Shown: positions 17,096-41,842 of the stretch, in pieces
How the letters are laid out: each line of letters starts with the position of its first letter
How positions within the stretch are numbered: the stretch's first letter is position 1
Assembly (NCBI GenBank): GCA_020247005.1
Contig: JADCJN010000204.1
Coordinates: forward strand, 1 to 42,166
Origin: Silvanigrellales bacterium
GTDB lineage: Bacteria; Bdellovibrionota_B; Oligoflexia; Silvanigrellales; Silvanigrellaceae
Length of the DNA stretch: 42,166 nucleotides
Reading direction: 5' to 3'
The notes under the pieces: model-generated
What the model was told of the DNA's origin: nothing
The model's input: the letters and a program-made list of their open reading frames with translations, nothing else
Database searches by the model: none
Translations under genes and position numbers: made by a program

Positions 17096-17099
17096 GAGC

Positions 17100-17951: not shown

Positions 17952-18129
17952 TTGAGATTCCCTATCACCCACGCCGCCAGTGTCGACCTAGGCTCGTTGA
18001 TGTGACCATGGTTGACCCCAAAGGTTAGCATACGGTTCCAATGGCGCAATGCCGTGAAGCTTGCACCGTTAAACCAATCATGAGAAACTCCCGACGAATT
18101 TCGGCACCAAAAAAGAGCATTGATAAAAC

Positions 18130-19134: not shown

Positions 19135-20294
19135 AGCGCAAGATTGCCGTCGTCATAACTGCACGGGCGAGCTACGCTCGAATTCGCACAGCACTCGAGT
19201 CCATCGATGCACATCCCGACCTCGAGCTTATTCTCATTGCCAGCGGGTCTCTGGTGCTCGAGCGTGCCGGAAACGCAGTCAAGGTCATCGAAAAAGACGG
19301 CTTTAGCTTTGCCGAAAGAATCTACATGGTTGTCGAGGGCGAGAACCCTGAGACCATGGCAAAGTCCGTCGGCCTGGGCATCGTTGAACTCACAACTGCT
19401 CTCAGCAGATTGAAACCCGATGCGGTGATTAGTATCGCCGACCGATTCGAGACCATTGCGACCAGCATCGCAGGCTCGTACTTGAACATTCCGGTGGTGC
19501 ATATCCAGGGTGGAGAAATTACAGGATCCATAGACGAAAAAGTGCGGCATGCCTCCACAAAGTTCGCCACCCTCCACTTCGTCTGTACCGAGCTCGCGCG
19601 CCAGCGAGTAATCCGTATGGGCGAAGACGGACGCTTCGTGTACAATGTCGGCTGCCCCTCTATTGACCTTGCGATTCGAAGTCTCAGCCTACCCCCGCTT
19701 GGCAATGAAGAACTCTACGGCCGCTTTGGCGGCGTGGGGGAGACAGTCGACGTTGCGAGCGATTTCATCATTTTAATGCAGCACCCTGTCACAACAGAGT
19801 GGAGCTCCGCCTACGCGCAAATGGAATCGAGCCTCGAGGCGGCATACGCTACAGGCATGCCCGTGCTTGCCTTCTGGCCGAATATCGACGCTGGCGCCGA
19901 TCAGGTTTCGAAGGCCATCCGAGTATTTCGGGAGCGTGTTAAGCCGCTGAACTGGCATTTCTTCAAGAACCTCCCGCCCGAGGACTTCCTGCGCCTTCTC
20001 CAAAGATGCAAGTGCATCGTGGGCAATTCCTCGGTGGGCATACGCGAGTGCTCGCTGCTTGGAGTGCCTACGGTGAACATCGGCGATCGCCAGGCTGGAC
20101 GTGAACGTGGCAAGAACGTCGTCGACGTTGACCATACCGTTGACAAAATTCGAATTGGCATCGAATCTCAGGCACGTGTGGGCCGATACGCTCGGGACCA
20201 GCTTTACGGTACGGGTGACGCTGGCAAGAAGATCGCAAGCATTCTCGCCTCGCTGCCGAGCTATCCGAATGAGAAGAGGTTCATCGACTCATGA
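19131..20294 (+). CDS. neuC: UDP-GlcNAc 2-epimerase, hydrolysing (NeuC/LegG family)
   Basis: A 387-aa GT-B-fold epimerase. It hydrolyses a UDP-N-acetyl-hexosamine and inverts C2 to release free ManNAc, or the 6-deoxy-diamino analogue, for the NeuB enzyme. Features are TARASYARI at the N-terminus (NeuC form TGTRADYG-like), SIADRFETIA, VVHIQGGEITGSIDEKVRHA, MQHPVTTEW, and the UDP-binding end NSSVGIRECSLLGVPTVNIGDRQAGRERGKNV. These separate it from the non-hydrolysing WecB class, one of which lies at 37945-39048. It is coupled to both neighbours through ATGA overlaps, which gives stoichiometric NeuB-NeuC-NeuA production. The substrate is not decided by motifs I can read. Confidence 0.9.
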   Translation: MKRKIAVVITARASYARIRTALESIDAHPDLELILIASGSLVLERAGNAVKVIEKDGFSFAERIYMVVEGENPETMAKSVGLGIVELTTALSRLKPDAVISIADRFETIATSIAGSYLNIPVVHIQGGEITGSIDEKVRHASTKFATLHFVCTELARQRVIRMGEDGRFVYNVGCPSIDLAIRSLSLPPLGNEELYGRFGGVGETVDVASDFIILMQHPVTTEWSSAYAQMESSLEAAYATGMPVLAFWPNIDAGADQVSKAIRVFRERVKPLNWHFFKNLPPEDFLRLLQRCKCIVGNSSVGIRECSLLGVPTVNIGDRQAGRERGKNVVDVDHTVDKIRIGIESQARVGRYARDQLYGTGDAGKKIASILASLPSYPNEKRFIDS

Positions 20295-20995
20295 CTGAAG
20301 GCGCCACTCCTCGCGTCCTTGCGCTTGTGCCCGCACGCGGCGGCTCAAAAGGGATTCCCCGTAAAAACCTTGTTGAAGTGCACGGGAAGCCGTTAATCGC
20401 TTGGACCATCGAACCCATGCTTAGTTGCCTGAATTCCGGATTACTCGTCGAAGGAGTCATTTCCACTGACGATGACGAGATCGCATGCACTGCATTCAAG
20501 TTCGGCGCCCGAGTCCCGTTTATTCGCCCGCCCGAACTAGCCTCCGATGCAGCAAAGAGCTTAGACGTTATCCTGCACGCACTTGACTTCTTTGAGGAGC
20601 GCGGCTGCGGGTTCGATTCTGTAATTCTGCTTCAGCCAACGAGTCCTCAGCGCACAGCCGAGGACATCCGCTCTGCTCTCCGCGTCTTCCACGAGGAAGG
20701 GAGAGATTCTCTCATCAGCGTGTACGAGGAGGACCACGTAAACGAGCTGATGATGTACCGCAAAGGAATCGGCAACGCAGGGAGTCCACTTTCGCCGTTT
20801 CATAACAAGGGCATCCGAAGGCAAGATAACGGGCCCCGCTACGTTCGCAATGGAGCCATATACATCTCTTCGAAAGAACTCCTCCGGAGAGGGACTATCA
20901 TCGGTGACGAACCTACACTCTTCGTTATGCCTAGAAATAGATCCATCAACCTCGACTCTATGGCCGACCTAGAGCTGCTTAGGAGGTCGTGGTGA
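20291..20995 (+). CDS. neuA: CMP-nonulosonate (acylneuraminate) cytidylyltransferase
   Basis: A 234-aa nucleotidyltransferase that activates the nonulosonic acid with CTP to the CMP-sugar donor. The P-loop-like LVPARGGSKGIPRKN is at residues ~12-26. ISTDDDEIA (~60-68), ELASDAAKS, LLQPTSPQR and RNGAIYISS are the standard NeuA motifs, and INLDSMADL sits near the end. Length (about 230 aa) fits the single-domain form without an esterase extension. The ATG overlaps the neuC stop. The 3' end carries AGGAGG (20981-20986), which is well placed for the small ORF that starts on its stop codon. CMP-donor use implies a dedicated transferase among the glycosyltransferases of this locus. Confidence 0.9.
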   Translation: MTEGATPRVLALVPARGGSKGIPRKNLVEVHGKPLIAWTIEPMLSCLNSGLLVEGVISTDDDEIACTAFKFGARVPFIRPPELASDAAKSLDVILHALDFFEERGCGFDSVILLQPTSPQRTAEDIRSALRVFHEEGRDSLISVYEEDHVNELMMYRKGIGNAGSPLSPFHNKGIRRQDNGPRYVRNGAIYISSKELLRRGTIIGDEPTLFVMPRNRSINLDSMADLELLRRSW

Positions 20996-22051: not shown

Positions 22052-22708
22052 ATGTTCCGCAAGCTCACTGGAAAAATCGATAAGCTCAAGCGAGAAGCTT
22101 TTAATTTCCGAATCAGGCTCGGGGTCGGCAAAGCCGAATTCACCCTCGTCACCAACAACTGCCTCGGTGGCAGTATCATGCAGGTCCTTGCCCGCCCCTA
22201 CAATTCCCCCTTCGTAGGCCTCTTCCTGCATGCCCCCTGTTACATCACTCTGCTTGAAGACTTTGAAACAAACATTCGGCTCCCGCTTACGTTCGTCGAC
22301 TCCTCCAAGTATGAGTCGGCAAGTTTTGACCGGGGCTCGAAACTCCCGCGTTACCCCATCGCCCGCCTCGGTCCCGATATTGAAGTCCACTTCCTCCACT
22401 ACGCTGACGAAGCAGAGGCTCGTGGCAAATGGACGAGGCGGCTCGAGCGCATGCGCACCGACAACCTAGCAGTCCTCTTCCTGGGCCGCGATCACTGCCA
22501 AGCGGAGCATGTCCAGCGTTTTGCCGCGCTCCGCTTCCCGGTGAAGGCAGCATTCACCACCTTCGCTATTGACGCGCGTGACCTGTTTCACCGCGAATTC
22601 CCGGGCAAGATAGATTATCCCTATAAGCACAAGGACCTGCGCCTGCTACCCAAAGAGTTCGATCTGATTTCCTTTCTGCGCCGTGCCGCTCGAGCTAGCA
22701 AGGAATGA
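22052..22708 (+). CDS. DUF1919 family protein
   Basis: A 218-aa soluble-looking protein matching the DUF1919 family found in capsule and exopolysaccharide loci. Key stretches are FTLVTNNCLGGSIMQ, NSPFVGLFLHAPCYITLL, RYPIARLGPDIEVHFLHY, KWTRRLERM and VLFLGRDHC. The function is not established; members are often called exopolysaccharide biosynthesis proteins and may transfer or modify a group on the glycan. The start is set at ATG 22052 (GAGAGG upstream); the frame extends back into the GT2 gene but without homology. The stop overlaps the start of the Wzy-like gene (ATGA). Confidence 0.75.
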   Translation: MFRKLTGKIDKLKREAFNFRIRLGVGKAEFTLVTNNCLGGSIMQVLARPYNSPFVGLFLHAPCYITLLEDFETNIRLPLTFVDSSKYESASFDRGSKLPRYPIARLGPDIEVHFLHYADEAEARGKWTRRLERMRTDNLAVLFLGRDHCQAEHVQRFAALRFPVKAAFTTFAIDARDLFHREFPGKIDYPYKHKDLRLLPKEFDLISFLRRAARASKE

Positions 22709-24168
22709 AAAGAACCGATTTCTCCAAAGTCGAGCGCATCCAGATTGCCGAACAAGGAACCTCGGCGTCTTGGATACCAAAGACTGTTGCCTGGCGATTT
22801 GAGGGCTTCTTCTTTCTGCTCGTTCCTCTTGCCCTTTTCATCGCTGTCGACCTGCGCCTCGCTTCGTTTTCGCGCAAGGAATCCTTGGTCCTCTACATTG
22901 CCACAATCGTTTGCGCTTACCTACCGAAGTTGGGCCTCCGCGGGGCGTGCCTCATGGGCGTCCTAGCCTCAATCCCTTTTGACTATGCGGAATTCTACTA
23001 CTTCGGAAGCTTGAACATGCGGGTGTGGTACTTTCTGCTTCCCCCGCTTTTACTCGTCCCGCTCCCACACAAAAAATTGTCGCTTCTTCTCATCGCACTC
23101 ATATTGCTTGTCGGACTCACTCCGTTCTTGGTGACGCCCCTGCTCGCCGGTGGACAGGTTTCAAATCTTGCACTTCTCCAGTGCGCAAAGCTCTATTTCG
23201 GCAGTGTCCTAGCGCCGCTTGTCCTTTTCCTCTGGTTCCGAAAGCTCGGCTACCTCATCCCATGGGAACGAACACTTGCAGCACTCCTGCTGTTCATCTG
23301 CGTTTACGGGCTCCTCCAAGTGGCGATTCCCACCGACGCGAACCCGTTCATGCACGTTGCCGACAACCGACCCGTCGGTTTGTTCTCAGAGACGACCTGG
23401 TTTGCCGAGACAATAGTGATCGTCGGCCTCCCGCTCGCCCTGTCGTGGCTCGCTGTCGGACGAACCGTGGGAGCGGGTGCGTTGCTCTCGATCTGCTTCC
23501 CTCTGCTTATCCTTACTGAAACAAGGGCAGCCTTCCTGGGCATGGCCACGTGCATAGCCCTGTTTCTGGCGGTCATCGTCACACGCATCCATTTCGAGAG
23601 AGAGATTTCTCGCTCTTCAATCTTAGTCGTGGTCGCAACCGCAACATTTGCCATTTTCGCAGCATTTCTGTTGGAGGCATTTGGAATGGAATTCCTCCAC
23701 TCGAAGCTCCTACAGAGCGTAGGCCGATTTAGCCTCGGCGATGGGTCGGCATCGCAGAGGGTTGAAGGCTTCACCATCGGCACACTCGACGTGCTCGACT
23801 TCCCTTTTGGACAGATGGTCACGGAAAAGAACAGGGTCACGGCGATTACCGGGGCAATAGTGGGAATCAAGCATTTCAGCCTCCCATTCGCGCTCCAGGC
23901 CGGATTCGGTCTCCAGGGGATTTTTATCTTCTTCGGCATTTTGGCTCTATTCTACCGCGCCGTCGCATGGCGAGTCCTCTCCGAACCTGCGCTGAACCCT
24001 GTCGCGATCTTTCGCCTCACGTCGATGAGCGCATGGCTCGTAATGGCTACCTTTTCGCCTCTCCATTTCTATCCGCCAACGTTGTTGATCGCCCTACTGA
24101 TCGCCGGCGTCGAAAAGGGAAACGGGACGATTGGACAGGCATGGGAAATGCGGGCACGCCATGGGTGA
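22705..24168 (+). CDS. Wzy-like polysaccharide polymerase (O-antigen ligase superfamily)
   Basis: A 487-aa polytopic membrane protein with about 10-12 hydrophobic helices and a short soluble N-terminus (~1-25). The central loop VADNRPVGLFSETTWFAET resembles the RPxGLFsEps loop of Wzy-type polymerases, and ETRAAFLGM falls in the next helix pair. A larger loop at ~345-385 contains a Ser/Gly-rich GDGSASQR region where Wzy proteins carry catalytic residues. It is expected to join undecaprenyl-linked repeat units in the periplasm. It is distinct in sequence from the other Wzy_C protein at 7649-9157. The start overlaps the DUF1919 stop, and its end overlaps the SDR start by eight bases. Confidence 0.7.
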   Translation: MKRTDFSKVERIQIAEQGTSASWIPKTVAWRFEGFFFLLVPLALFIAVDLRLASFSRKESLVLYIATIVCAYLPKLGLRGACLMGVLASIPFDYAEFYYFGSLNMRVWYFLLPPLLLVPLPHKKLSLLLIALILLVGLTPFLVTPLLAGGQVSNLALLQCAKLYFGSVLAPLVLFLWFRKLGYLIPWERTLAALLLFICVYGLLQVAIPTDANPFMHVADNRPVGLFSETTWFAETIVIVGLPLALSWLAVGRTVGAGALLSICFPLLILTETRAAFLGMATCIALFLAVIVTRIHFEREISRSSILVVVATATFAIFAAFLLEAFGMEFLHSKLLQSVGRFSLGDGSASQRVEGFTIGTLDVLDFPFGQMVTEKNRVTAITGAIVGIKHFSLPFALQAGFGLQGIFIFFGILALFYRAVAWRVLSEPALNPVAIFRLTSMSAWLVMATFSPLHFYPPTLLIALLIAGVEKGNGTIGQAWEMRARHG

Positions 24169-27046: not shown

Positions 27047-28777
27047 TTGGAAACTTCTCATGGCCTCGGCGCCGTTCGCCCATTCCTGAAGAACGAAGCG
27101 GGCAACCTGCTGCTCCTCGCGTGCTCGGGCGTGTGGCTCGCAGTATCGCTCGCAGCGGCCCTTCGGCACCATCTCGCTCTTGCGCCGGATGTCGCCACTG
27201 CGACCGCATTCATGCTCACAGCACTGCTCGCCGCTCTCACCTGGCTCCGCGGACTTCAATTCGAGGCCCATTTCGGGTCCCGAGCGTTAGCCTTCGCGGC
27301 CCTCCTTTTCGCAATTGTTCTACTTTCGCAGTGGCACCGAGATTGGGGCCCGTTCGTGTCGACAGGCCGGTTCGCGGGAGGCGACGCAGGGAACCACATT
27401 GTCCTGCGTGACCATTTTCTCAACGGAAAACCTTCGGCCTACAACGGCTTCACGGCGCTTTACGTTTCCACCTGGCTCCTCGAATACACCACCGGCATGC
27501 CACCCGCGAGCTCCTTTGCCATTGCCTTATACGCGGGACTTTTCATCCACGTTGCAGTGTTTGCGTCCTTCCTAGCAAGCGGGCTGTCTTCCATCAGGAG
27601 TTTCTCGCTAAGGGCGGCGCTCATCGCTGCAAGCGTCAGCGCCCTGTGCGTGCTCACGCTCGTTCCCTTCGCGTATTACCAGGCGGAGGGATTCTATGCG
27701 CATCTCGCCACCCTTGCGCCCGCTTCGCTCTCACTCTGGTTCTTCTGCCATTGCCGCGTAGGGCTGTTGGGCCGATGCTTGGCTGCCGGCCTCGCTGCCG
27801 TCGCCTTGCGCTTCACCTACGGGCTCAACCTTGCCGACTTCCTCGCGGCCCTCGCTCTAACCTTCGCACATGTCGTCATCATGGAGCCAAAGGACGGGGC
27901 GCAGACATGGACCCGGCCCTTCCACACGGGCGTTACACTAATCGCTCTGCTTGGCGCACTAGCAGCCTATAAAGCCCTTTGGCCTGTGGCGTTCGACGCG
28001 GGTGGTGGTATCCGATGGACCAACATGGGCCCACTCGACCTCGCCTTTCTACCGCTGTCGCTCGCGTCCTTTGTATTGCTTGCAAAGGGGCGCATGGATT
28101 TCGGACTGACGCTCGCATGTTCACTCGGCATGGTCACTGGCGTCGTTCTGCTCCTCCACGCGGCAGCGGGACTTCCCCACCTCTTTTATTACTTTAAGTA
28201 CCCATTCACCCCATTGGCTATTGTCGCTGGGGCGTCTCCGCTCTTTCTGGCGCGCTGCCTGAAGCTCGAGTCCCTAGCCTGGAGGACGACGTCGATCACG
28301 CTCTTTTTGCTCGTGATCGGGCTCGGAGCCTGGGGGTATGCACCGTACCTGGAATTTTGGACGCACAGGTTCACAGGCGACCGCAGTAAGCGCGCCATCG
28401 ATCGGCTCGTGGAACCAGCCATCGTCGCGCATATCGTCGCAACGCTCGAAAAACAGGGTCGCCGATTCGGAGGCTACTACGATCCTATCTGGGCATATTC
28501 GCACTTCATGAACTCCTCCCTTGGAAACGTAGAGGCGAGGAGGTTCGCCCATTTAGGTCACTTCCGCTCTGGTTCCTACGTCACCCCAACGGAATCGACC
28601 TGCAGTTTCTGGCGCGATCTCGGCGAGGCCAACACACTTTATGCCGAAACGGACGCCGTACTGGCCGCATCCGTTAGCGCTCGGCTTTCGCGCCTTCAAA
28701 CCGAAGCTGGGGTCACTTGCTCGAGCATCCGCGTGTCGGACAGTTCGTTCGAAACTCTTTGCACACTGTGTCCATGA
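27047..28777 (+). CDS. Polytopic membrane protein, GT-C glycosyltransferase candidate
   Basis: A 576-aa protein with about 11-13 hydrophobic segments from residue 20 to ~440, then a soluble C-terminal domain of ~140 residues with several Cys. The loop RFAGGDAGNHIVLRDHF (108-124) sits after the third helix, where GT-C enzymes carry their catalytic Asp, so I propose a GT-C transferase. I do not recognise the exact family. It starts with TTG at 27047, because an in-frame TAA lies at 27020-27022 and no ATG or GTG intervenes; GGCGGA lies seven bases upstream. It closes the plus operon and ends 17 bp from the convergent DUF2304 gene. A nearby DPM1-like enzyme could supply its polyprenyl-phosphate donor. 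Confidence 0.6.
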   Translation: METSHGLGAVRPFLKNEAGNLLLLACSGVWLAVSLAAALRHHLALAPDVATATAFMLTALLAALTWLRGLQFEAHFGSRALAFAALLFAIVLLSQWHRDWGPFVSTGRFAGGDAGNHIVLRDHFLNGKPSAYNGFTALYVSTWLLEYTTGMPPASSFAIALYAGLFIHVAVFASFLASGLSSIRSFSLRAALIAASVSALCVLTLVPFAYYQAEGFYAHLATLAPASLSLWFFCHCRVGLLGRCLAAGLAAVALRFTYGLNLADFLAALALTFAHVVIMEPKDGAQTWTRPFHTGVTLIALLGALAAYKALWPVAFDAGGGIRWTNMGPLDLAFLPLSLASFVLLAKGRMDFGLTLACSLGMVTGVVLLLHAAAGLPHLFYYFKYPFTPLAIVAGASPLFLARCLKLESLAWRTTSITLFLLVIGLGAWGYAPYLEFWTHRFTGDRSKRAIDRLVEPAIVAHIVATLEKQGRRFGGYYDPIWAYSHFMNSSLGNVEARRFAHLGHFRSGSYVTPTESTCSFWRDLGEANTLYAETDAVLAASVSARLSRLQTEAGVTCSSIRVSDSSFETLCTLCP

Positions 28778-29148: not shown

Positions 29149-29899
29149 TGAAAAGGAAGACCTTAATGAGATCGTGGAGGATTCGAACTGCACCCAAATT
29201 CGACTGCCCCTTCCGAAGAGTTTCTTCAGTATATGCGATTGAAACTGGAACTTCAGCGTATCGCGCCCGATGTCGTTTCACGATGAGCTTGATCTCTGTC
29301 GCATGGGCCATCCTATTCTGCCTCAATCTGAGCACCTCTGCGAAGGAACGGTTGAATACCCGGTACCCGTTGTGAGCGTCGTTCAACGCGAGGCCGGTCA
29401 CAAACCGCTCAAATATAAGAGCCGCATAGAGCAAGAGTTTACGCGTCATAGGCACTTCTAACGCGACTCCCTTACCAAATCGATTTCCAAAAACAATGTC
29501 GGCACCTGAAGATGCCATCTGACCTAAAAACTGGCGCAAGTCGGCCACGTCATGTTGGCCATCGCCATCCATGGTGATGAAATAGACCGTTTTAGGATCC
29601 GCCAGGCCGATGCGCACGCCCGTTTCAATGGCTGCACCCTGCCCGAGGTTAATTGGATGAGTCACAACGAACAGACGAATGCGCGGATCGGGTTCGGTGC
29701 GCAGCCTCACACGGCTCACCGACTCTGCGGAGCCATCGTCGACGATAATGAGCTTGAATCCTGAAACGTGGTCGAAACCTGTATCATTGAGGAGAGACAC
29801 AAGCTCCAATTCGAGGCGCTCGATGAGCCGCGGAAGCCGTGCCATCTCGTTGTAGCAGGGAATTATGATCGCCGCGATCTGGTTCATTCTGTCCTTCAT
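29138..29899 (-). CDS. DPM1-like GT2 (polyprenyl-phosphate glycosyltransferase)
   Basis: A 253-aa GT2 enzyme without membrane helices, like dolichyl-phosphate mannose synthase. IIIPCYNEMARLPRLI opens the fold, LIIVDDGSAES is near 50-60, NLGQGAAIETG near 86-96, and the metal site is TMDGDGQHDVADL (~112-124). A C-terminal SIAYTEETLRKGQSN follows. It probably loads a hexose onto undecaprenyl phosphate, making a donor for extracytoplasmic GT-C transferases such as those at 2156-4477 or 27047-28777. The ATG overlaps the stop of the WecA-like gene (ATGA), and a DUF2304 partner follows. Confidence 0.85.
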   Translation of the reverse strand: MKDRMNQIAAIIIPCYNEMARLPRLIERLELELVSLLNDTGFDHVSGFKLIIVDDGSAESVSRVRLRTEPDPRIRLFVVTHPINLGQGAAIETGVRIGLADPKTVYFITMDGDGQHDVADLRQFLGQMASSGADIVFGNRFGKGVALEVPMTRKLLLYAALIFERFVTGLALNDAHNGYRVFNRSFAEVLRLRQNRMAHATEIKLIVKRHRARYAEVPVSIAYTEETLRKGQSNLGAVRILHDLIKVFLFSGN

Positions 29900-31707
29900 C
29901 CGTAGACGACACGCAGACCGAAGACCGAGACCAAGAGAACGTACAGAAGCGCCCCTGATGAAAGGATTTTCAATCGATACACGTTGCCCTTGTGGCGCTT
30001 CTGCATGGTCTGAATCGCGGCGAACAATACCAGGCTGCGGAGTCCGATGACGTTGAGTCGGTGCTCGGACCTGTAGGGCTCGGGCACGAGCAGAAGCAGC
30101 ATCGGCAAGAGGATCATCAGGAAATCACTCGGCGTAACGATAAAGTACTGCCGGCGAAAAGTAATCACTATGAATAGCAACGTACTGATAGTGAGCCACA
30201 AGAAAACATAATTGTATATAAATTGTATATTCAACCGCTCGCCGCCCCAGATAATCCAAATGGAGTTGGCGTTATTAGCAACGAGAACTACAGTAACAGC
30301 TGAAGCTATAGCCACAGAGTCGAGGAAGTCTACCTTGCTGCGGGGAACGAAGATGCTCATAAGCAGAATGGTCATCACGATCGCTGCGATGAAGCCTACC
30401 ATCCGAGGCGGCACGCCCGCGAAGACCGGCGTCGCCAGGAGGATCCCATAGATTATGTACCTGTTCGATTTTTCCCAGACGCGAATTAGGCGCGAGAGTG
30501 TAGGACCGCTGTTAGCGTCGAACGCGAACAGCGCCCGTTGGGTGCGAAGCCGCAAGAGGAAGCCCTCATCGAGCCGGACCACAAGTGGCATCACTAAGAA
30601 GAGAAACCCAGCGCTAAGGTAGGGTACCCACCAGAGCTGATAGGCGGGGAACGCCACGGGTAGCACGCCAGTCACAGCGAACACCACGGCCACAAAATAT
30701 ACTGCCGCCACGCTCTGTGAATGTGACAACCCCAACTTCAGGAGCCCGTGGTGAAAGTGACGCTTGTCAGGCGCCATAGGCGAAATACCCGCCTTCACGC
30801 GACCCGTGATGACCCAGGCCGTGTCGAAGATGGGGACCGCCAAACAGAGCACAACCGTTATGAGTGGAACGCTTTCCACGACAGCCGGACTCGGCTTTTC
30901 GGCGAACGTCAACCAGCCGGGGGCAAGCGCGAGCCCCTGCCCGTTAGCCACGAGCAAGAAGAGCACACCAGTCATGAAACCGAGCCAATTACTCCCTCCG
31001 TCGCCCATGAACATCGTTGCCGGGTAAGTATTGTATTTTAGGAAGCCAATCAGAGCACCGATCATGGGCAGGGAAAGCGCGAGCAGAAGATAAAGATCGC
31101 CCGTGTTGAGAAAATGAAGGTAACTCAGGAAGAGGACCGCGATGAGGACCACCCCTCCGGCGAGTCCATCGAGCCCATCGATCATATTGATGCTGTTGAT
31201 GGCACCCACGACTACGAAGACGCTGAACGTGAAACCGAGGATTGGCGGCACGGCTATCCCGTAGCCTGGAGCGAGATAGAGGTACTCGAGTCCGAGCCCA
31301 GCGCTCCCGACCGCGAGCGCGGCGGCGCCCAACTGCACCAGCAGCCGCAGCTTCGCCGAAAGAGGCCGGAGATCATCGGTGAGACCAGTGAGGAACATAA
31401 CTATTGAGGCGGTGAAAACACCCGTGAGATTGCCCGGCACGGCCGTGAAGAGCAGACTCAAAAAGAAGCCGCTAACGATGGCCACACCACCAAGCCGCGG
31501 GATTGGTCGAGTATGGATCCTGCGGGGTGGATCCGAAGGTCCGTTTGATGGGGATGGCACATCTCGCACCGCCAGGGTTGCGCATCCAGCCGCGTCCGGA
31601 AAGTCGTACAGTTTGCGCACTTGCGCGAACCGCATTATCGCTGGCATCAGAGCCAACGAACAGACCAAAGACGCAAAAAAAGCGAGGACGAGTTGAAGGC
31701 TAAGCAC
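29896..31707 (-). CDS. WecA/MraY-family polyprenyl-phosphate HexNAc-1-phosphate transferase with an extra C-terminal membrane domain
   Basis: A 603-aa protein. Residues 1-~380 are a complete WecA-type transferase with about 11 helices. Metal and substrate motifs are present: TGLTDDL (Asp111-Asp112), NSINMIDGLDGLAGG (171-185), FMGDGGSNWLG (233-243) and DKRHFHH (314-320, the family HIHH-like motif). Such enzymes move HexNAc-1-P from a UDP-sugar to undecaprenyl phosphate. Residues ~400-603 add about five to six further hydrophobic segments not found in ordinary ~350-aa WecA. The start is GTG at 31707, with AGGTAGG just upstream. It is the second initiating transferase of the locus, unrelated in fold to the PglC-like one. 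A broken second copy of its 5' end lies at 33474-33599. Confidence 0.88.
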   Translation of the reverse strand: MLSLQLVLAFFASLVCSLALMPAIMRFAQVRKLYDFPDAAGCATLAVRDVPSPSNGPSDPPRRIHTRPIPRLGGVAIVSGFFLSLLFTAVPGNLTGVFTASIVMFLTGLTDDLRPLSAKLRLLVQLGAAALAVGSAGLGLEYLYLAPGYGIAVPPILGFTFSVFVVVGAINSINMIDGLDGLAGGVVLIAVLFLSYLHFLNTGDLYLLLALSLPMIGALIGFLKYNTYPATMFMGDGGSNWLGFMTGVLFLLVANGQGLALAPGWLTFAEKPSPAVVESVPLITVVLCLAVPIFDTAWVITGRVKAGISPMAPDKRHFHHGLLKLGLSHSQSVAAVYFVAVVFAVTGVLPVAFPAYQLWWVPYLSAGFLFLVMPLVVRLDEGFLLRLRTQRALFAFDANSGPTLSRLIRVWEKSNRYIIYGILLATPVFAGVPPRMVGFIAAIVMTILLMSIFVPRSKVDFLDSVAIASAVTVVLVANNANSIWIIWGGERLNIQFIYNYVFLWLTISTLLFIVITFRRQYFIVTPSDFLMILLPMLLLLVPEPYRSEHRLNVIGLRSLVLFAAIQTMQKRHKGNVYRLKILSSGALLYVLLVSVFGLRVVYG

Positions 31708-33690: not shown

Positions 33691-34695
33691 TCAAAGGCCT
33701 CCCGCTTTCCCAAGCCTTCCCCGCATCCCGTCCCAGGTTCCTCGCAGGCAGGCTGCAGACTTTTGAAAGAACCCCCCTTGTTCATGAGAAAGCATTTTGC
33801 ACTGCCAAAACAGGAACTTTATGCGCCACAAAAGGCAAAAGAACTTCCAGAAGCCTTGGGAGGCCTGAAGTTCAAGCCAGGTATGGTTGCGGCAAATGTA
33901 GTAGAGCCTGAGTGCAGAATAGTGTGGCAACCGCAGCCAAAGCTTCCGAAATCGCGACTGCACAATGCGGGTTTCACCCAAGGCATGTTTCATAGGAGCA
34001 CGAGGCACAACGACAACGCGAAACTGCGCACGCCGCACCTCCAGGCACATGGCGTGGTCGACACCATCTATGAACAAAGCGGGCCAGGGGAGGGCTAACC
34101 AAGGCAGGGCGGCCAAATTCACCAATGTGCCCGAGGTGATGGTGGCGTCGCAGTCATAGGGTTCGAGCGCGTAAGGCGATTCATCAGGAGTGTCGACGGA
34201 GGGAAGGGGTGCGCGCTGAGGCCTCACAAAGCGGAACTTTCGAAACTCAAGCCCGTGTAACGGCGCGCCATCGGGCTGCACCAGAGGAAGGCAACAGGCG
34301 AGCGCAACTCGAGGGTCACCTGCAACTTTTTTGAGCTCTGCATGCGCCTGAAAACTGGGCACGCTGTCTTGATCGAAGAGCCACAGGTGCGTGAAGCGCT
34401 GCTGCGCAGCCAAACAGAAGGCAATTTGTAGCGCACCTGAAATGCCGAGGTTTTCGGGATGATGTTCGTAAAAAAGTAAAAAACGGCTTTGCGAGGCGAG
34501 AGCCTCCACATGCTCTTGATGGGGGGATGGGGAGTTGTCGACCACCACAATGCCAGCAATGCTTTCCGTTTGTTTTTGAAGTGACTCAAACAACGATGCG
34601 AGGCCGCCGAGGTCGCCGTAGAGCGTCACCATGGCCAACGTGCGTGAGGCGCCTTCGGGGCGCTGCAGCGTGCTGACGGTCGAGGATTGAATCAT
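33691..34695 (-). CDS. GT2 glycosyltransferase, rhamnosyltransferase-like
   Basis: A 334-aa GT2 enzyme. TLAMVTLYGDLGGLASLFESL begins the GT-A fold after a short leader (usual form 'vvt.yn...l...l.sl'). IVVVDNSPSP (~50-60), HHPENLGISGALQIA (~78-92) and HLWLFDQDSVP (~103-113, the Asp-x-Asp site) match rhamnosyltransferases of the WbbL/RfbF type. TSGTLVNLAALP and FIDGVDHAMCLEVRR follow. The C-terminal ~60 residues are aromatic and basic, as in membrane-associated members. I start it at ATG 34695, because the frame upstream overlaps the control region of the divergent lipoprotein gene. It stands immediately upstream of the WecA-like remnant. Confidence 0.8.
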   Translation of the reverse strand: MIQSSTVSTLQRPEGASRTLAMVTLYGDLGGLASLFESLQKQTESIAGIVVVDNSPSPHQEHVEALASQSRFLLFYEHHPENLGISGALQIAFCLAAQQRFTHLWLFDQDSVPSFQAHAELKKVAGDPRVALACCLPLVQPDGAPLHGLEFRKFRFVRPQRAPLPSVDTPDESPYALEPYDCDATITSGTLVNLAALPWLALPWPALFIDGVDHAMCLEVRRAQFRVVVVPRAPMKHALGETRIVQSRFRKLWLRLPHYSALRLYYICRNHTWLELQASQGFWKFFCLLWRIKFLFWQCKMLSHEQGGFFQKSAACLRGTWDGMRGRLGKAGGL

Positions 34696-34833
34696 GTCTG
34701 GAATCTTTCCGAATTCACAAAGTCGTGTCAATGCGACCGAGCCCGGCAAGTCGTGCGCAGCGCAGCGGCTCCCGGTGAACCGATGCAATCCTTCGAGTGC
34801 AATTTGAAAGCCTGGGCATTGGGGAACGAAGAC

Positions 34834-36489
34834 GTGCGAATCGAATTTTTTCTAACGCACCAAAGAAAAGCCCGACATTGCAGTGGTATCGGCGTTTGCG
34901 CAAGCGCACTGCTTGTGGGTGTGTTGGGCTCGTGCAACCCCGCTCCCAAGGTTCTGGTCCACAGGGAAAAAGAACCTCCCGCCAGGGAAACCGACGCCTT
35001 CAAAACACCCTCGCACCAATGCGACAGTGTTCTTCCAGAGTCGGAGTCGGTGTTTTTACTTTCCGGTAAAGCCTACGAAAACGAGATGCGGAAGCTGTGG
35101 AACTGGACACGCCCGGACGGGCTTTCACCCGAGGCAGCCGCATCCGAGCGTTTGGTGGCTTTAGACGCCGAAGGGCAGTGCTTGAGTGAAAACCTCAGAA
35201 TGCACCTCGCGAACACATTTGCTTTGACCAAAGAACTCGCCAACGCGGCTTTGACACCCGAAGGGCCTGCCCTGGCCGACCTCTTGTCTGAAATTGAAAG
35301 GCGACCGGTGTCTGCCGAGGAGGTGGATGCCAAACGAACTGCCGCGCAACAAGAGGCTGTTTCTTTCAACGAGCACACGTTCATTTCCACTCTTCTTGGC
35401 CAGACCCTGACAGCACCCGCGTTCTTGCTCCCCCCAAAGCTCCCCCGCTCGCGTGGAGCTGAAATGCTGCAGTCCGCTTTGGGCCGAGCATCGCTTGTTC
35501 ATGCGTTCAGCTTCGCCCTCCAAGACGCCTCTGCACCCCCTTCGGACGTCAAACGCCTGAGTGCGCTGAAATCGTCTGCATTCAAAAATGCATTGAGCGC
35601 ATTGGCAGTGAAATGGATGGGCGAGGGGGCCTTCCATCGAAAAGCCATCGGCATTGCCGAGAGCTACCTGGGCATTGAAGCTTTGCGTTCCAATAAGGGC
35701 TCTTCGTTGAGCGAGGTGCAACGGCGCGAAATTCTCAGGGACTTCGACGACTACACCGTCCGCACGCTCCTTCAGCCCGGGTCCGGTTTTGCAAAATTCT
35801 TCACTCAGGCTGACTCTTTGTCGTCTCCAACCTTGGACAGCTTCCACCCCGATTCAAGCCTAGACGCCGACACGGGGCGTCATATTTGGCGCGCTGAAAA
35901 ACGAAAGGGTGCGCTCGGCCACCCTGCTTTCCTCATTGTTCACGCGAATTATGCGCAGCCTGATCCCGTGAAACGGGGGGTTGCCGTGTTGCAAAATATA
36001 CTTTGCATCTCGCTTCCTTCCCCGCCAGCCGACGCCCTTGAGCAAAAAATCCCGGACCCACCAGAGTCCACCAATCGCGAACGCTTCGAATTTTTGGCCA
36101 CGTTCCCTGCCTGCGCAAGCTGCCACCGGATTATAAATCCGGTGGGGTACTTATTCGAAGAATACGACCAGATCGGGCGGTTTCGGGCAATGGACGCAGG
36201 CAAACCCGTGGATGCGTCGGGTCATCTTCCCGATATGGCCGCGCTGGAAGGGGAAGCCATGCCACCCCGCATGCAAAGCATCGCGGACCTCTCGACATGG
36301 ATTTCACAATCGCGCAAAGCGAGAGGCTGTTTTGCCGAGAGGGTTCAAAAAACGCTTCTTCCCTCCTTTTCTGAAGGCCTCGCTGGCCCAACCCAAGCTT
36401 TTTTGGACACAGGAGATTTTCGCACGCTCGTTCTGAACAGCCTGTGGCACGCGGTCTTCACAGAAGACCACCCCGGAGACGCGAAATGA
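34834..36489 (+). CDS. DUF1592/DUF1588-type lipoprotein with a CxxCH heme motif
   Basis: A 551-aa exported protein. A hydrophobic segment ends in the lipobox LGSC, so Cys34 is the probable lipidation site. The middle contains ASLVHAFSFALQDAS and EILRDFDDYTVRTLL, diverged DUF1592-like regions. QPDPVKRGVAVLQNILC leads into the DUF1588 core FPACASCHRIINPVGYLFEEYDQIGRFR, where C427-A-S-C-H431 is a c-type heme-binding pattern. A DUF1585-like end follows. These proteins occur with DUF1552 partners in Planctomycetota and Myxococcota; their role is uncertain. Several starts are possible: GTG 34834 (GGGGA seven bases upstream), ATG 34783 or TTG 34687. I chose the one giving the shortest signal peptide. 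The stop overlaps the next start (ATGA). Confidence 0.75.
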   Translation: MRIEFFLTHQRKARHCSGIGVCASALLVGVLGSCNPAPKVLVHREKEPPARETDAFKTPSHQCDSVLPESESVFLLSGKAYENEMRKLWNWTRPDGLSPEAAASERLVALDAEGQCLSENLRMHLANTFALTKELANAALTPEGPALADLLSEIERRPVSAEEVDAKRTAAQQEAVSFNEHTFISTLLGQTLTAPAFLLPPKLPRSRGAEMLQSALGRASLVHAFSFALQDASAPPSDVKRLSALKSSAFKNALSALAVKWMGEGAFHRKAIGIAESYLGIEALRSNKGSSLSEVQRREILRDFDDYTVRTLLQPGSGFAKFFTQADSLSSPTLDSFHPDSSLDADTGRHIWRAEKRKGALGHPAFLIVHANYAQPDPVKRGVAVLQNILCISLPSPPADALEQKIPDPPESTNRERFEFLATFPACASCHRIINPVGYLFEEYDQIGRFRAMDAGKPVDASGHLPDMAALEGEAMPPRMQSIADLSTWISQSRKARGCFAERVQKTLLPSFSEGLAGPTQAFLDTGDFRTLVLNSLWHAVFTEDHPGDAK

Positions 36490-37853
36490 TCATGAACAGA
36501 CGCAAACTTTTGTCGCGCGCATTGAAAGCCTCGGTTTTCGGTCTGGCTGCGCATGGCATTCGCAATGTCTCTTTGGCCGACGGCGTCGGATCGCCTCGTC
36601 TTTTGTTTGTCTTCACGCCGTGCGGACACACTCCCGGCTGGCGGAAAGGACAGTCGGCAAAAAAAGTGGTGCTCGACCCCACGATGATGCCGCTTCAAAA
36701 GTACCAGGACAGAACAACGCTGATTGAAGGCCTCTCACTTGGCCATTTCGACTACGTGAAACTCAATGGTCATTGGGGCGCTTTGCACAGCCTTCTTACA
36801 GCGCGCAAGGCCGACACGGTGAAGGGCAATAGACCCGACCTCAGTGAGGCCAGCAGCGCCTCATTCGACCAAGTCATGGGGCGATTGATTGGGAAAGACT
36901 GCCCCTTGTCTGCAGTGGTGGCCGGTGGCCCGGAAACGTCGAACACCGTGGGACAGCTCTTATTAAGTTGGCACGACAAAGGCAGGGCGGCTTTGCCCAT
37001 TCACGATCCGAAGCTTCTTTATTTTCTCCTTTTTGGCACAGGCAGCAGCGAAACCGAGGCACACACCGATGCCTCGCGAAACGCAGCAGCGTGGGAAGCG
37101 GCCGTGGTGGAAGAGAATTTGCGCAACGCAACTTCACTCCTCCGGGAGGCTGCTCCCGAAGAGCGCCCTGTGCTCGAAGCCTATTTTTCTGCCTTCGAAA
37201 CCATGGCGGGCAGCATAAAGTCGACGCGAGAACGCGAAGCAAGCCAACGTTCGACTCGAACGGAAGACACGACCTTTTCGAATATGGCTGGGCTTACTCC
37301 CATTGCCGACATCGCTGGCCAAATGGACCTGCAGAGCAGGCTCCTGGCCGCGGGCCTCGCCTTTGAATCGACGCGTGTGGCCACTTACGTCATGGCACCT
37401 TCGCCCAGCTACATGGTAGTTCCCGGGGCCGACAAAGGACACCACTTCCACTCCGACTCCGAAGAACATTATTCCAAATTCGACACCTTTTACGCGGAGC
37501 GAATGAAGACGCTTCTCGATGCCCTGGACAGCTACCCCGAGGGCGACGGCACTGTGCTCGACAACACGCTCGTGGTGCAAATGTCAGAAATCTCTTGGCC
37601 ACCCCAGAACCACGTTCACGACAATTTACCGGTGTTTCTTTTCGGCGGACTTCCTCGGAAGACCCTTGCCATGGGGCAACACATCCACTTCCCGACCTTC
37701 GGCAAAGGGCGGGGGGCGATAAATGAGAATCCTTCGAACCGCCGCATCGGCGAGCTGTATTTGACCCTGGCTGAAGCTGTTGGCCACCCATTTTCGGGAT
37801 TTGGGGACGACCTGAACACGCGTGTTCTCAGGGAACTCTTGGCAGCGCGTTGA
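36486..37853 (+). CDS. DUF1552 family protein with Tat-type signal
   Basis: A 455-aa exported protein. The N-terminus MIMNRRKLLSRALKASVFG carries a twin-arginine pair before a hydrophobic stretch, suggesting Tat export in folded form, perhaps with a cofactor. The mature part shows the DUF1552 pattern: LLFVFTPCGHTPG, HWGALHSLLTA, SFDQVMGRLIG, YVMAPSPSYMVVPG, HHFHSDSEEHY and VVQMSEISW. Many conserved His/Asp/Glu residues resemble the metal-dependent sulfatase/phosphatase-like or DUF1501 group, but the activity is unknown. ATG 36486 overlaps the stop of the DUF1588 gene, and the two families co-occur in other genomes, so they very probably act together. A strong palindrome follows three bases after its stop. 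Confidence 0.8.
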   Translation: MIMNRRKLLSRALKASVFGLAAHGIRNVSLADGVGSPRLLFVFTPCGHTPGWRKGQSAKKVVLDPTMMPLQKYQDRTTLIEGLSLGHFDYVKLNGHWGALHSLLTARKADTVKGNRPDLSEASSASFDQVMGRLIGKDCPLSAVVAGGPETSNTVGQLLLSWHDKGRAALPIHDPKLLYFLLFGTGSSETEAHTDASRNAAAWEAAVVEENLRNATSLLREAAPEERPVLEAYFSAFETMAGSIKSTREREASQRSTRTEDTTFSNMAGLTPIADIAGQMDLQSRLLAAGLAFESTRVATYVMAPSPSYMVVPGADKGHHFHSDSEEHYSKFDTFYAERMKTLLDALDSYPEGDGTVLDNTLVVQMSEISWPPQNHVHDNLPVFLFGGLPRKTLAMGQHIHFPTFGKGRGAINENPSNRRIGELYLTLAEAVGHPFSGFGDDLNTRVLRELLAAR

Positions 37854-37944: not shown

Positions 37945-39048
37945 GTGATTCACGTCGTTATTGGCACCAAAGCCCAGCTCATTAAAATGGCACCGCTCAT
38001 GCTCGCCCTGCAAAAGGCAAGCGTCCATTACAATTTCATTTTTACTGGCCAACACCAAGAGACCATCAACGACCTCCGAGAGAATTTCTCGCTCAAGGCC
38101 CCCGACGTCACGCTTCATTCGGGCAAAGACGTCACGTCTCTTCCCATGATGCTCATGTGGATTCTCAAAATCCTATTCAACACGATTTTTCGACGCCACC
38201 GTATTTTTGATGGCGACACTTCGAAGGAAAGTGTTGTGCTTGTGCATGGCGACACCTTTTCAACACTCCTGGGCGCGTTGATGGGCAAAGTGGCTGGCAT
38301 GCGCGTGGGCCATGTTGAGTCGGGGTTGAGGTCTTTCAACCTTTGGCACCCGTTTCCGGAAGAACTCACAAGGCTGGCTGTGTTCCGCTTAAGCGATGTT
38401 TTTTACTGCCCCGGGCCTTGGGCTCTTTCGAATGTTGCAAAGTACAATGGCGAGAAAGTGGACACAGGGTACAACACCCTTATGGACGCGCTTCGCCTTG
38501 CAACCGATAGCTTCCAAGGTGCGGCATCGACAGGCACAGGTGAGCCGCTCTGCCCAGGTCATCCTTATTGCGTCATCACCATCCACCGGTTCGAAAACAT
38601 CTTTTCGCAATCCACGCTTGAAATGATTGTGGCCCTTGTCGAGCGCATTGCCTCCAAAGTGCAGGCCGTTTTCATATTGCACCCTGTCACGGAGCGCCGT
38701 TTGCGGGAATTTGGTTTGATGGAGCGAATGCGCTCGAACCGTCGCGTGGAATTGAGGCCCCGCTCCGATTACTTCACTTTCATGCGTTTGGTGCAGTCGT
38801 CGGAATTTCTCGTGTCTGACGGAGGCAGCAATCAAGAAGAAGCTTTTTATATGGGAAAGCCGTGTCTTCTGCTGCGACGTGCCACGGAACGTCAAGAGGG
38901 CATGGGTGTGAACACGGTTCTGAGCAACTATAACACGGACACCATCGACGACTTTCTCAACACTTACGAAACACTGTCTAGCCCTGCCCGTTACATGGAG
39001 CATTCTCCCACGGCACTCATCCTCGCTCATTTGCGGGAATCGCAGTGA
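37945..39048 (+). CDS. UDP-HexNAc 2-epimerase, WecB-like (non-hydrolysing type)
   Basis: A 367-aa GT-B-fold epimerase related to WecB/MnaA, which interconverts UDP-GlcNAc and UDP-ManNAc. VVIGTKAQLIKMAPL (4-18) replaces the usual GTRPExIK, a variant I associate with a sub-family of surface-polysaccharide clusters. VHGDTFSTLLGAL, GHVESGLRSFN, PFPEELTRL and SDGGSNQEEAFYMGKPCLLLR are the remaining epimerase motifs. Because the N-terminal Arg/Glu are changed, activity on UDP-GlcNAc should not be assumed; it could act on another UDP-amino sugar. It starts with GTG at 37945 and its TGA overlaps the GTG of the next gene (GTGA). It heads a three-gene plus operon. Confidence 0.75.
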   Translation: MIHVVIGTKAQLIKMAPLMLALQKASVHYNFIFTGQHQETINDLRENFSLKAPDVTLHSGKDVTSLPMMLMWILKILFNTIFRRHRIFDGDTSKESVVLVHGDTFSTLLGALMGKVAGMRVGHVESGLRSFNLWHPFPEELTRLAVFRLSDVFYCPGPWALSNVAKYNGEKVDTGYNTLMDALRLATDSFQGAASTGTGEPLCPGHPYCVITIHRFENIFSQSTLEMIVALVERIASKVQAVFILHPVTERRLREFGLMERMRSNRRVELRPRSDYFTFMRLVQSSEFLVSDGGSNQEEAFYMGKPCLLLRRATERQEGMGVNTVLSNYNTDTIDDFLNTYETLSSPARYMEHSPTALILAHLRESQ

Positions 39049-40817
39049 GCGCTCCCCCACTGAAAACGGGCAGGATGGCGGGCTGGAAGGCGGTTCTCGG
39101 CCTCACATTGAGTTTCGTGCTCGTGGGCATCTGCGTCTGGTTCGTTCTGAAGGATGCCAACACCCTTTCGCGCCTTGCAAACACCAATCCGCTGGGCATT
39201 GGGATTGCCTCGCTCTGCATGATAGCCTTTCTTTGGTCGAACGGACTCGTTCTGAATGAAATGCTTCGAGCCTGGAATGTGAGCCTCAAACCTCTCACTT
39301 CGTTTTCTTTGAGTGTCGTAACGAACGCAGGAAACACGTTCCTCCCTCTCTCTGCAGGCATGGGCCTGCGCGCGTTGTACCTTCGAAAAACGCTGGGAGT
39401 CCCTTTGCCTGCGTTTCTGGGCGCCTTGGCAGGCATTTATATCGTCAATTTTCTTGTTGTCTTTGCAACGGGCTTCGTGATGCTAGCGCTTCTGCGCGCG
39501 AATGGCTCTGCTCTTTCCCACTGGCTTTTGGTGGCATTTGGCATAGCCACTTCAGGACTTGCTTTTGTGGCCTTTGCACCTCTTGTGGCGCCTCGCTTCG
39601 CAAACAAAGGCTTGAAAAGGCTTTCAGTCCTGATGCCGGGTTCCGTCGCAAAGCGTTTCTTCAACATCTTCACCAGTTGGCAAGCATTGCTTGCCGACAA
39701 GCGCGCGGTAGGAACCATCGCGCTCTATTCCATTCTGAACGTGGCACTTTCCAGTGGTCTACTTTGGGGTAGCTTTTCCGCTCTCGGAGAATCGCTGTCC
39801 ATGGAATCCGCTCTCTTTCTGTCGGTGATGAACAGCCTCGCCATTTTCTTGAAAATAACACCTGGCAATTTGGGCGTGAATGAAGTTCTTCTGCTTGCAG
39901 CTGGCTCCACACTCTCTCTTGACCCTGGGCTTGTGGCCTTGGCTGCGGGAATATCTCGTGCCGTTCAATATGGAACAATGCTTTTCTTGCTGCCCTTTGG
40001 GCTTGTCTTTTTGTTCGGAGCGGGGTGGAAGGCCTCCTTGGCAGAAGCCTCCCACTCCATGCGAAAAAACGCATTCGCGACAAACACAGGGGAATCCGAC
40101 ATGACGCCTTCTTTGGGTTCACCTCCAAGTGAAAGTCATCGCAAGGCCTTGCACGGAAAAGAGTACGCGGAAGCTTTTGAGGCCAAGCAAGACCCCCAGC
40201 GCATTGGACGCATTCTGGAGCGCCTGTCCATTCCCGAGGGCGGACAAATATTGGATGTCGGGTGTGGCAATGCGCTCGCATTGGAATGGCTCGAGACCCT
40301 CACTCCGAACCGTATCGGCGGTTATACTGGCGTCGATTTTTCGGAAGAACTGCTTGCCTTCGCCCTCGCTCGCCAAAAAGCACTGGGCGCCCAGCATGCG
40401 CGCTTTTTCCAAGGCTCGTTGAAAGAACTTCTTTCAAAATTTGGAGCTTCTTGGGTCGACCTTGCCTTTGCCTTCGACGTTTCGGAACATGTGGCTGACG
40501 ACGAATGGCTCGAGGCCTGTAGGGATGTGCGCAAGGCGCTCAAACCTGGGGGCGAGTTCGTGCTCCACACTCCCAATGCGGGATTTTTTCTTGAACAGAT
40601 GAAGGCCCGCAATTTTATTGTGCGTCAGTTCCCAGAGCACATTGCTGTGAGAGATGCCAAACAGAACCTAGCGCTGCTCAAAGAGGCCGGATTCTCGCAA
40701 GTCACAATCCAAATTCTTCCCCACTACAACGTGCTGCGATATGTTCACCCTCTGACAAAACTTCCGGGGCTCGGACGTCTCTTCGAAGCCCGTTTGCTCT
40801 TGACGGCCACAGCATGA
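39045..40817 (+). CDS. Fusion: LPG-synthase-TM/UPF0104 membrane domain + SAM methyltransferase
   Basis: A 590-aa two-domain protein. Residues ~12-335 form the UPF0104 / lysylphosphatidylglycerol-synthase TM domain with about eight helices. Family marks are NAGNTFLPLSAGMGLRALYL (~86-105) and FLKITPGNLGVNEVLLLAAG (~267-286). Some relatives are implicated in moving or modifying lipid-linked sugars. A ~35-residue polar linker leads to a class I methyltransferase: QILDVGCGNALALEWL (~401-416), YTGVDFSEELL, AFAFDVSEHV and LKPGGEFVLHTPN. The two families normally occur as separate proteins, and I see no frameshift or internal stop at the joint. A methyltransferase anchored at the membrane could act on a lipid-linked glycan. 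GTG 39045 overlaps the WecB-like stop, and the end overlaps the GT2 start (ATGA). Confidence 0.8.
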   Translation: MSAPPLKTGRMAGWKAVLGLTLSFVLVGICVWFVLKDANTLSRLANTNPLGIGIASLCMIAFLWSNGLVLNEMLRAWNVSLKPLTSFSLSVVTNAGNTFLPLSAGMGLRALYLRKTLGVPLPAFLGALAGIYIVNFLVVFATGFVMLALLRANGSALSHWLLVAFGIATSGLAFVAFAPLVAPRFANKGLKRLSVLMPGSVAKRFFNIFTSWQALLADKRAVGTIALYSILNVALSSGLLWGSFSALGESLSMESALFLSVMNSLAIFLKITPGNLGVNEVLLLAAGSTLSLDPGLVALAAGISRAVQYGTMLFLLPFGLVFLFGAGWKASLAEASHSMRKNAFATNTGESDMTPSLGSPPSESHRKALHGKEYAEAFEAKQDPQRIGRILERLSIPEGGQILDVGCGNALALEWLETLTPNRIGGYTGVDFSEELLAFALARQKALGAQHARFFQGSLKELLSKFGASWVDLAFAFDVSEHVADDEWLEACRDVRKALKPGGEFVLHTPNAGFFLEQMKARNFIVRQFPEHIAVRDAKQNLALLKEAGFSQVTIQILPHYNVLRYVHPLTKLPGLGRLFEARLLLTATA

Positions 40818-41842
40818 GCTTGCGCGCTCCCGTCAGCGTTGTTGTTGCAGCCTATAATGCGGAAGAAACTCTCGACTCGTGTTTGGAAGCACTCGCGAGT
40901 CAGCATGATTGGCGCGTGGGTGACGATTTCGAAGTCATTGTTGTGGATGATGGCAGCACCGACAAAACAGCCGAATTGGCTGAAAAACACCCTGTGCGGC
41001 TCATTCGCCTGAACGAAAATCAAGGCCGAGTGGTTGCACGAGAAACCGGCGTGGCAGCAGCAACCCACGAACGCGTGTTGATTGTCGATGCCCGTGTGAT
41101 TGTCGACCATGGGCTTTTGAAAGCACAGGATGCCATAGAAGGGCGCTGCCTCATGGCGGGAGACTTCGGAGAACGAGAACTCATGACGAGCTCGACTTTC
41201 GCATCGCGCATGGAACGCGTCTTCCTTCTTCTTCGCAACACATACTATGCGGGCGGGTATCCTCAGCATGTTGACGTGCTGGAAATTGATGCCAAGAACT
41301 TTTCTCGTTCCCCCAAAGGACTTGGCTGTGCGCGTATCGAAAAATCACTCTTCTTGAAACTTCAGCCCGAAGAAAAAGGCAAACACGTTAACGACGACAG
41401 CAAACTTCTTTGGGCACTGGTTCAAGAACACTCCATTCCATTGAAGCGATGCCTTGCCTTGAAAGTGCGTTACTTACAAAGAACATCTGGGCATTCCCTC
41501 CGATCGTGGCTTGTGGGTCGGGGTGTCCTTTTTGCTGATTTTGTATTCCCTCGAAACGTCATGGTTCAAGCACTTTTCCTGGCATCTTGGTTGGCAATTC
41601 TAGCATTCCCATTCCTGATGATTTTGCAACCCCGGATTCTTCTCGTTTTTCTTGGAGCGATAGTCGCCGGACTCCTTGCCCTGGGCGTTTGGATTTCAAA
41701 GCGACCCTTCGACGTGCCACTGCTTCTGGTTTCTCTGCCCGAAATCGGGCTAACGTTTTGGTGGGGATTGTCGAAGGGGGTTTGGTTGCGCTTCTGTCGC
41801 CGCTGGCGCGCGGAAAACGCTCCCTCGCACCCCCAAGGTTGA
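40814..41842 (+). CDS. GT2 glycosyltransferase with C-terminal membrane helices
   Basis: A 342-aa family-2 enzyme. VVVAAYNAEETLDSCLEAL opens the GT-A domain. FEVIVVDDGSTDKTAELA (~38-55) and RVLIVDARVIVD (~91-102) give the acidic sites; the second one is DAR rather than DxD. Residues ~245-315 form two to three hydrophobic helices, and a basic tail follows, so the protein is membrane-anchored like processive or polyprenyl-phosphate GT2s. The ATG overlaps the stop of the UPF0104-methyltransferase gene, so the three genes from 37945 are a coupled operon. The donor is unknown. Confidence 0.8.
   Translation: MSLRAPVSVVVAAYNAEETLDSCLEALASQHDWRVGDDFEVIVVDDGSTDKTAELAEKHPVRLIRLNENQGRVVARETGVAAATHERVLIVDARVIVDHGLLKAQDAIEGRCLMAGDFGERELMTSSTFASRMERVFLLLRNTYYAGGYPQHVDVLEIDAKNFSRSPKGLGCARIEKSLFLKLQPEEKGKHVNDDSKLLWALVQEHSIPLKRCLALKVRYLQRTSGHSLRSWLVGRGVLFADFVFPRNVMVQALFLASWLAILAFPFLMILQPRILLVFLGAIVAGLLALGVWISKRPFDVPLLLVSLPEIGLTFWWGLSKGVWLRFCRRWRAENAPSHPQG

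Follow-up and report, generated by a model that had tools for sequence, protein, structure and literature searches.

Results

The fusion reading frame and its neighbours

The window, that is, the whole 42,166-nucleotide stretch of DNA that was analysed, corresponds to contig 118 in an assembly of 4.28 Mb and 291 contigs, with a completeness of 92%. Its forward strand carries an uninterrupted open reading frame of 590 codons (39045–40817), which runs from a GTG start at 39045 to a TGA at 40815–40817 and in which a PF03706 membrane domain and a complete class I SAM methyltransferase, each above the curated Pfam cut-offs, are joined in a single 590-residue chain. Both ends of this fusion gene overlap its neighbours by 4 bp, through a GTGA at the 5′ end and an ATGA at the 3′ end. 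The upstream operon member (37945–39048, plus strand) is a WecB-like gene of the UDP-N-acetylglucosamine 2-epimerase family; its product reaches the cut-off of PF02350 with 178.9 bits and falls under that of TIGR00236 wecB (187.6 bits, cut-off 210.15). The downstream gene (40814–41842, plus strand) encodes a GT2 glycosyltransferase (PF00535, 84.1 bits) with a C-terminal hydrophobic region, as judged by hydropathy. The contig ends at 42166, 324 bases past the GT2 gene, and locus L001 (4622 bases) ends at the same position.

The fusion gene sits in a surface-glycan cluster of ~40 kb that is O-antigen/exopolysaccharide-like. The cluster encodes a PIG-L deacetylase, a Polysacc_synt_2 protein, a Wzy_C protein, an initiating sugar transferase, a DegT aminotransferase, NeuB together with an epimerase and a cytidylyltransferase, GalE, a WecA-like GT4 protein and many glycosyltransferases. 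The sequence-only reading had placed the fusion in a glycan setting, with a WecB-like epimerase and a membrane-anchored GT2 as its neighbours. Both neighbours were borne out by Pfam matches, with the hydrophobic region of the GT2 seen by hydropathy, and the surrounding genes indeed form a surface-polysaccharide cluster.

Several other features of the cluster were recorded. The NeuB, NeuC-like epimerase and cytidylyltransferase genes follow one another in series with 4-bp overlaps (18130–20995, plus strand) and form a nonulosonic (sialic-acid-like) sugar module. The WecA/MraY-like GT4 gene (29896–31707, minus strand) matches PF00953 at residues 95–252 of a 603-residue frame, which far exceeds the 346 positions of the WecA model and the 321 of the MraY model and whose last ~250 residues carry no assignment. 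A DUF1588 (PSCyt3)/DUF1552 (HXXSHH) pair lies mid-cluster, directly 5′ of the epimerase gene (34687–37853, plus strand), and a second methyltransferase-like gene (17100–17972, minus strand) matches Pfam over the second half of the domain alone (profile positions 44–94 of 95). Four long frames of the cluster, at 11979–13394, 15629–17185, 22705–24168 and 27047–28777, gave no Pfam match at E 1e-5.

The membrane domain belongs to the PF03706 family

The N-terminal part of the fusion protein contains a PF03706 LPG_synthase_TM/UPF0104 domain (residues 22–312; 39108–39980, plus strand). In the Pfam search it scored 67.2 bits against a cut-off of 33.4 (E 2.2e-18) and covered profile positions 3–298 of 302, and a second PF03706 profile search, from which the coordinates were taken, gave 69.4 bits. 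Hydropathy analysis revealed eight membrane segments, the last one comprising residues 306–324. Loops on the side of the membrane that bears both termini contain 20 lysine and arginine residues (five loops) versus 4 on the four opposite loops; thus, both termini are predicted to be cytosolic, where SAM is found. An alignment of the window protein with six distant PF03706 members showed that Pro273, Gly274 and Gly277 of the P-G-x-x-G stretch (residues 273–277) are invariant. The score against the TIGR00374 flippase-like subfamily of NCBIfam (32.1 bits) lies under the cut-off of 43.2, and the Pfam search found no PF09924 LPG_synthase_C domain, the partner domain in MprF, in the fusion protein.

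The C-terminal domain is a class I methyltransferase

The methyltransferase core spans residues 381–553 (40185–40703, plus strand) and was assigned from Pfam matches and from its predicted fold. Six Pfam methyltransferase models score above their cut-offs within these residues, namely Methyltransf_23, Methyltransf_25, Methyltransf_12, Methyltransf_11, Methyltransf_31 and Ubie_methyltran. Methyltransf_23 is the strongest (E 2.7e-15) and Ubie_methyltran the weakest, exceeding its cut-off by 1.8 bits (21.9 versus 20.1). The domain bears a D-x-G-C-G motif, the acidic-loop residues and an S-E-H stretch. Motif I (G-x-G-x-G) reads GCGNA, with alanine in place of the third glycine at a position (position 58) where glycine is nearly invariant in the family alignment; GCGAA is present in another homologue in a separate methyltransferase alignment.

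When the chain was predicted from Met353 onward, the methyltransferase formed a complete domain with a mean pLDDT of 81.6. Against solved class I enzymes, the predicted fold reached its highest Z score, 20.0, with 5w7k, at an rmsd of 2.6 over 190 aligned residues. The best 50 solved entries listed are near-tied, with Z scores of 18.7–20.0, and act on many different substrates, so the fold does not indicate a substrate for the enzyme. A whole-chain structure predicted without an alignment had a pLDDT of 42 and was set aside. The open frame, the two domains and the operon layout are direct observations, and the class I fold is a prediction. The single 590-codon frame, the names given to its two domains, and the eight helices followed by a polar stretch up to the methyltransferase had all been proposed in the sequence-only reading, and they hold up against the internal-stop check, the Pfam cut-offs and the hydropathy profile, respectively.

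None of the NCBIfam methyltransferase models with a named substrate reached its cut-off with the fusion protein; the top match was UbiG, with 33.2 against a cut-off of 102.95, and UbiE-like models came next, MenG_MenH_UbiE scoring 24.1 against 158.35. This ranking, the narrow Ubie_methyltran match in Pfam and the silence of the predicted fold on substrate would fit a real fusion in which the membrane domain merely tethers the methyltransferase for some other substrate, such as a quinone, a protein or a soluble nucleotide sugar. We consider such a tether very unlikely: the UbiG score is far from its cut-off, the PF03706 motif is conserved and the operon serves glycans.

The joint carries a gene-boundary signature inside an open frame

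A polar linker (residues 325–380; 40017–40184, plus strand) leads from helix 8 to the methyltransferase core and holds a possible gene boundary. Residue 324 marks the approximate end of helix 8 and residue 381 the approximate start of the core; between them lies Met353, encoded by an internal ATG at 40101. This ATG is preceded by an RBS-like stretch and takes part in an ATGA overlap (together 40088–40104, plus strand), in which the TGA at 40102–40104 closes a +1 frame that is open from 39880. The bases 5′ of the ATG pair with the 16S tail, which we take to be the common bacterial one, at −6.5 kcal/mol, compared with a gene-start median of −6.1 that was obtained from a mechanically defined gene set by taking as the start the best within the first 60 codons, a procedure that flatters starts. 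Pairing energies as good as this were found at 18 of 262 internal ATGs in genes of this genome, and an A comes next after 23% of internal ATGs, which gives them the ATGA form. The combination of an equally good site with ATGA occurred at three of 192 internal ATGs examined, ATG 40101 among them. Junctions in the window most often overlap by exactly 4 bp, as do 12 of its 22 pairs of same-strand neighbours, two of these being the fusion gene's own ends. With its RBS-like site and ATGA overlap at 40101, the methyltransferase therefore resembles an independently started gene, and because of the +1-frame stop within the ATGA and the commonness of 4-bp overlaps, a shift by a single base would turn the fusion into two ordinary coupled genes. 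The joint is ambiguous, with the signature of a gene boundary lying inside an open frame.

These features could be explained by two ordinary, translationally coupled genes that overlap at ATGA 40101–40104, are separate in the population of the organism and had their frames joined by an indel in the linker, introduced in sequencing or assembly, or by a very recent mutation. Besides the start site, the open +1 frame and the frequency of 4-bp overlaps, the sizes of the products would agree with this: a separate membrane protein of ~352 residues would suit the stand-alone PF03706 frames, which mostly have 310–420 residues, and the methyltransferase from Met353 is predicted to fold as a complete domain. 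Three observations speak the other way. The division of the assembly into 291 contigs points to short-read data, which seldom contain indels; no plainly frameshift-split gene was noticed in an unsystematic look through the window, despite 40 homopolymer runs of at least six; and codon usage is slightly against a switch to the +1 frame. Over 40017–40100, frame 0 was preferred to a +1 switch, with −1.1 log units for the best switch and −10.1 for the worst, an early one. A switch within the last few codons costs just the 1.1 log units, and codon usage cannot bar a shift in the last ~25 bases. Overall, we hold two separate genes to be somewhat unlikely. Since the assembly looks short-read and no plainly broken genes were noticed in the window, we judge that the in-frame joint is probably real.

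A further explanation is that one DNA frame gives two products, either the fusion plus a free methyltransferase made from the internal start, or a membrane domain freed by a −1 slip in the linker. The start signature at 40101 would serve the former. For the latter, an in-frame heptamer of slippery type, A AAA AAC, lies in slippery phase in the linker (40064–40070, plus strand), and a −1 slip there would lead to the −1-frame stop at 40130. Codon usage favours a −1 switch in the linker by 1.95 log units over frame 0, a small value that counts against the in-frame reading but is within noise for ~28 codons. A search of 58,818 coding bases for four heptamer types gave only four in-frame occurrences, yet a frequency of about one in 15 kb needs no explanation. 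Two products from one frame are, in our judgement, quite unlikely.

Searches for a second fusion

The fusion gene was not found in the phylum genomes searched other than its own (56 and 58 genomes, its own included), the other genomes matching its methyltransferase domain only. PF03706 itself is present in 49 of the 56 phylum genomes, and PF03706 frames of more than 500 residues account for five of 63 rows, namely that of the window and four with LPG_synthase_C (MprF-type). No methyltransferase gene was found beside a PF03706 gene in 39 phylum loci (L014–L053 minus L052, flanks mostly 1.5 kb) when their ORFs were searched with a methyltransferase profile. Two weak profile matches, L045 3991–4647 (E 1.5e-4) and L050 1356–3350 (E 0.005), are each separated from the PF03706 gene by over 1 kb. 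The neighbouring GT2 was matched at E 1e-15 in one of the 56 phylum genomes, its own, and the neighbouring epimerase has relatives, at 26–35% identity only, in 13 of the 56, again including its own.

In a species-genome collection (84,980 species by its description), a narrow protein-derived pattern gave 59 pattern matches and a widened, still narrow motif gave 13, with no confirmed relative in either case. The fusion was not found on plasmids, where two records matched the methyltransferase part only and none the membrane part, nor in viral contigs, and phages gave no match to it. A search of the open-licence literature returned no paper evidently on a PF03706-methyltransferase pair. We describe the architecture as new within limited searches, which covered the phylum genomes and narrow pattern scans.

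Discussion

The reading that we favour is a real in-frame fusion of two once-adjacent operon genes, in which a lipid-translocating membrane domain of the MprF/AglD type is joined to a cytosolic class I methyltransferase, and we give it an even chance. In its favour stand the open frame with two domains above their cut-offs, the predicted cytosolic placement of both termini, the conserved P-G-x-x-G stretch, the D-x-G-C-G, acidic-loop and S-E-H residues, the predicted class I fold, the glycan setting, the codon preference for frame 0 over a +1 switch and the precedents described below. Against it count the gene-start signature and ATGA at the joint, the slightly better codon score of a −1 switch, the failure of the searches to find a second example, the alanine in motif I and the putative status of flippase activity in stand-alone UPF0104 proteins. 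The working proposed below, including the presence of the fusion in the living cell, the flippase activity, the methyl acceptor and the order of the steps, is what we infer. The neighbouring GT2 would add a sugar, whose source might be the 2-epimerase, to a membrane lipid carrier or a phospholipid. The methyltransferase domain would then methylate the headgroup of the modified lipid on the cytosolic face, and the membrane domain would carry the product to the outer leaflet. Some free methyltransferase may still be made from the former start at 40101. By analogy with known systems, the epimerase-fusion-GT2 trio would assemble a lipid-linked sugar, methylate it and move it. The methyl tailoring of a lipid-bound glycan that the sequence-only reading hinted at would be plausible.

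In its fullest form, this proposal would describe the first flippase-methyltransferase, with a single chain both methylating its cargo at the cytosolic face, be it a lipid-linked sugar or a phospholipid headgroup, and carrying it across the membrane. We put this forward tentatively, as a possibility with the odds against it; if true, methylation joins the modify-and-flip designs of MprF and AglD. To our knowledge, few UPF0104 membrane domains have a known substrate. If the fusion is real, the fused modifier would reveal the chemistry that is done on the UPF0104 cargo and would provide a handle for finding it.

The methyltransferase part shares its core motifs and predicted fold with class I enzymes of the Methyltransf_23/25 type (UbiG-like, 3mgg, Rv2258c). 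It differs from them in being fused to a membrane domain and in scoring under the cut-off of every NCBIfam family with a named substrate. The PF03706 family, as described in the available part of PMC5898192, has mostly stand-alone members, with MprF and AglD as its two-domain cases. In MprF (PF03706 plus PF09924), as is proposed here, a membrane domain of this family is fused to a cytosolic enzyme that modifies lipid headgroups, following a modify-then-flip logic (PMC5898192). The fusion protein departs from MprF in that the partner is a methyltransferase rather than an LPG_synthase_C aminoacyl transferase and the membrane part is a single eight-helix block. AglD (GT2 plus UPF0104) likewise joins a UPF0104 domain to an enzyme of glycan assembly (same part of PMC5898192). 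Its glycosyltransferase, however, is N-terminal in the same chain, whereas in the window the GT2 has a gene of its own directly after the fusion gene, and the enzyme joined to the membrane domain is a methyltransferase at the C-terminal end.

The closest operon comparison is with gpgSDF and hexSDF, which, in the sections available of PMC12713373 and PMC10128005, combine a lipid glycosyltransferase with a deacetylase that modifies the headgroup and with a flippase of the UPF0104/MprF-like kind. The locus resembles them in grouping a glycosyltransferase, a headgroup modifier and a UPF0104/MprF-like protein in one operon (PMC12713373, PMC10128005). In contrast, the modifier of gpgSDF and hexSDF is a separate deacetylase, and the same sections describe neither a methyltransferase nor a fusion (PMC12713373, PMC10128005). 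Because HexF is dispensable for glycolipid production (PMC10128005) and GpgF is a putative flippase (PMC12713373), the flippase activity of stand-alone UPF0104 proteins is, on these partial accounts, putative. Should the joint prove to be two genes, the locus would still group a flippase, a methyltransferase and a GT2 in an operon that can be compared with gpgSDF and hexSDF.
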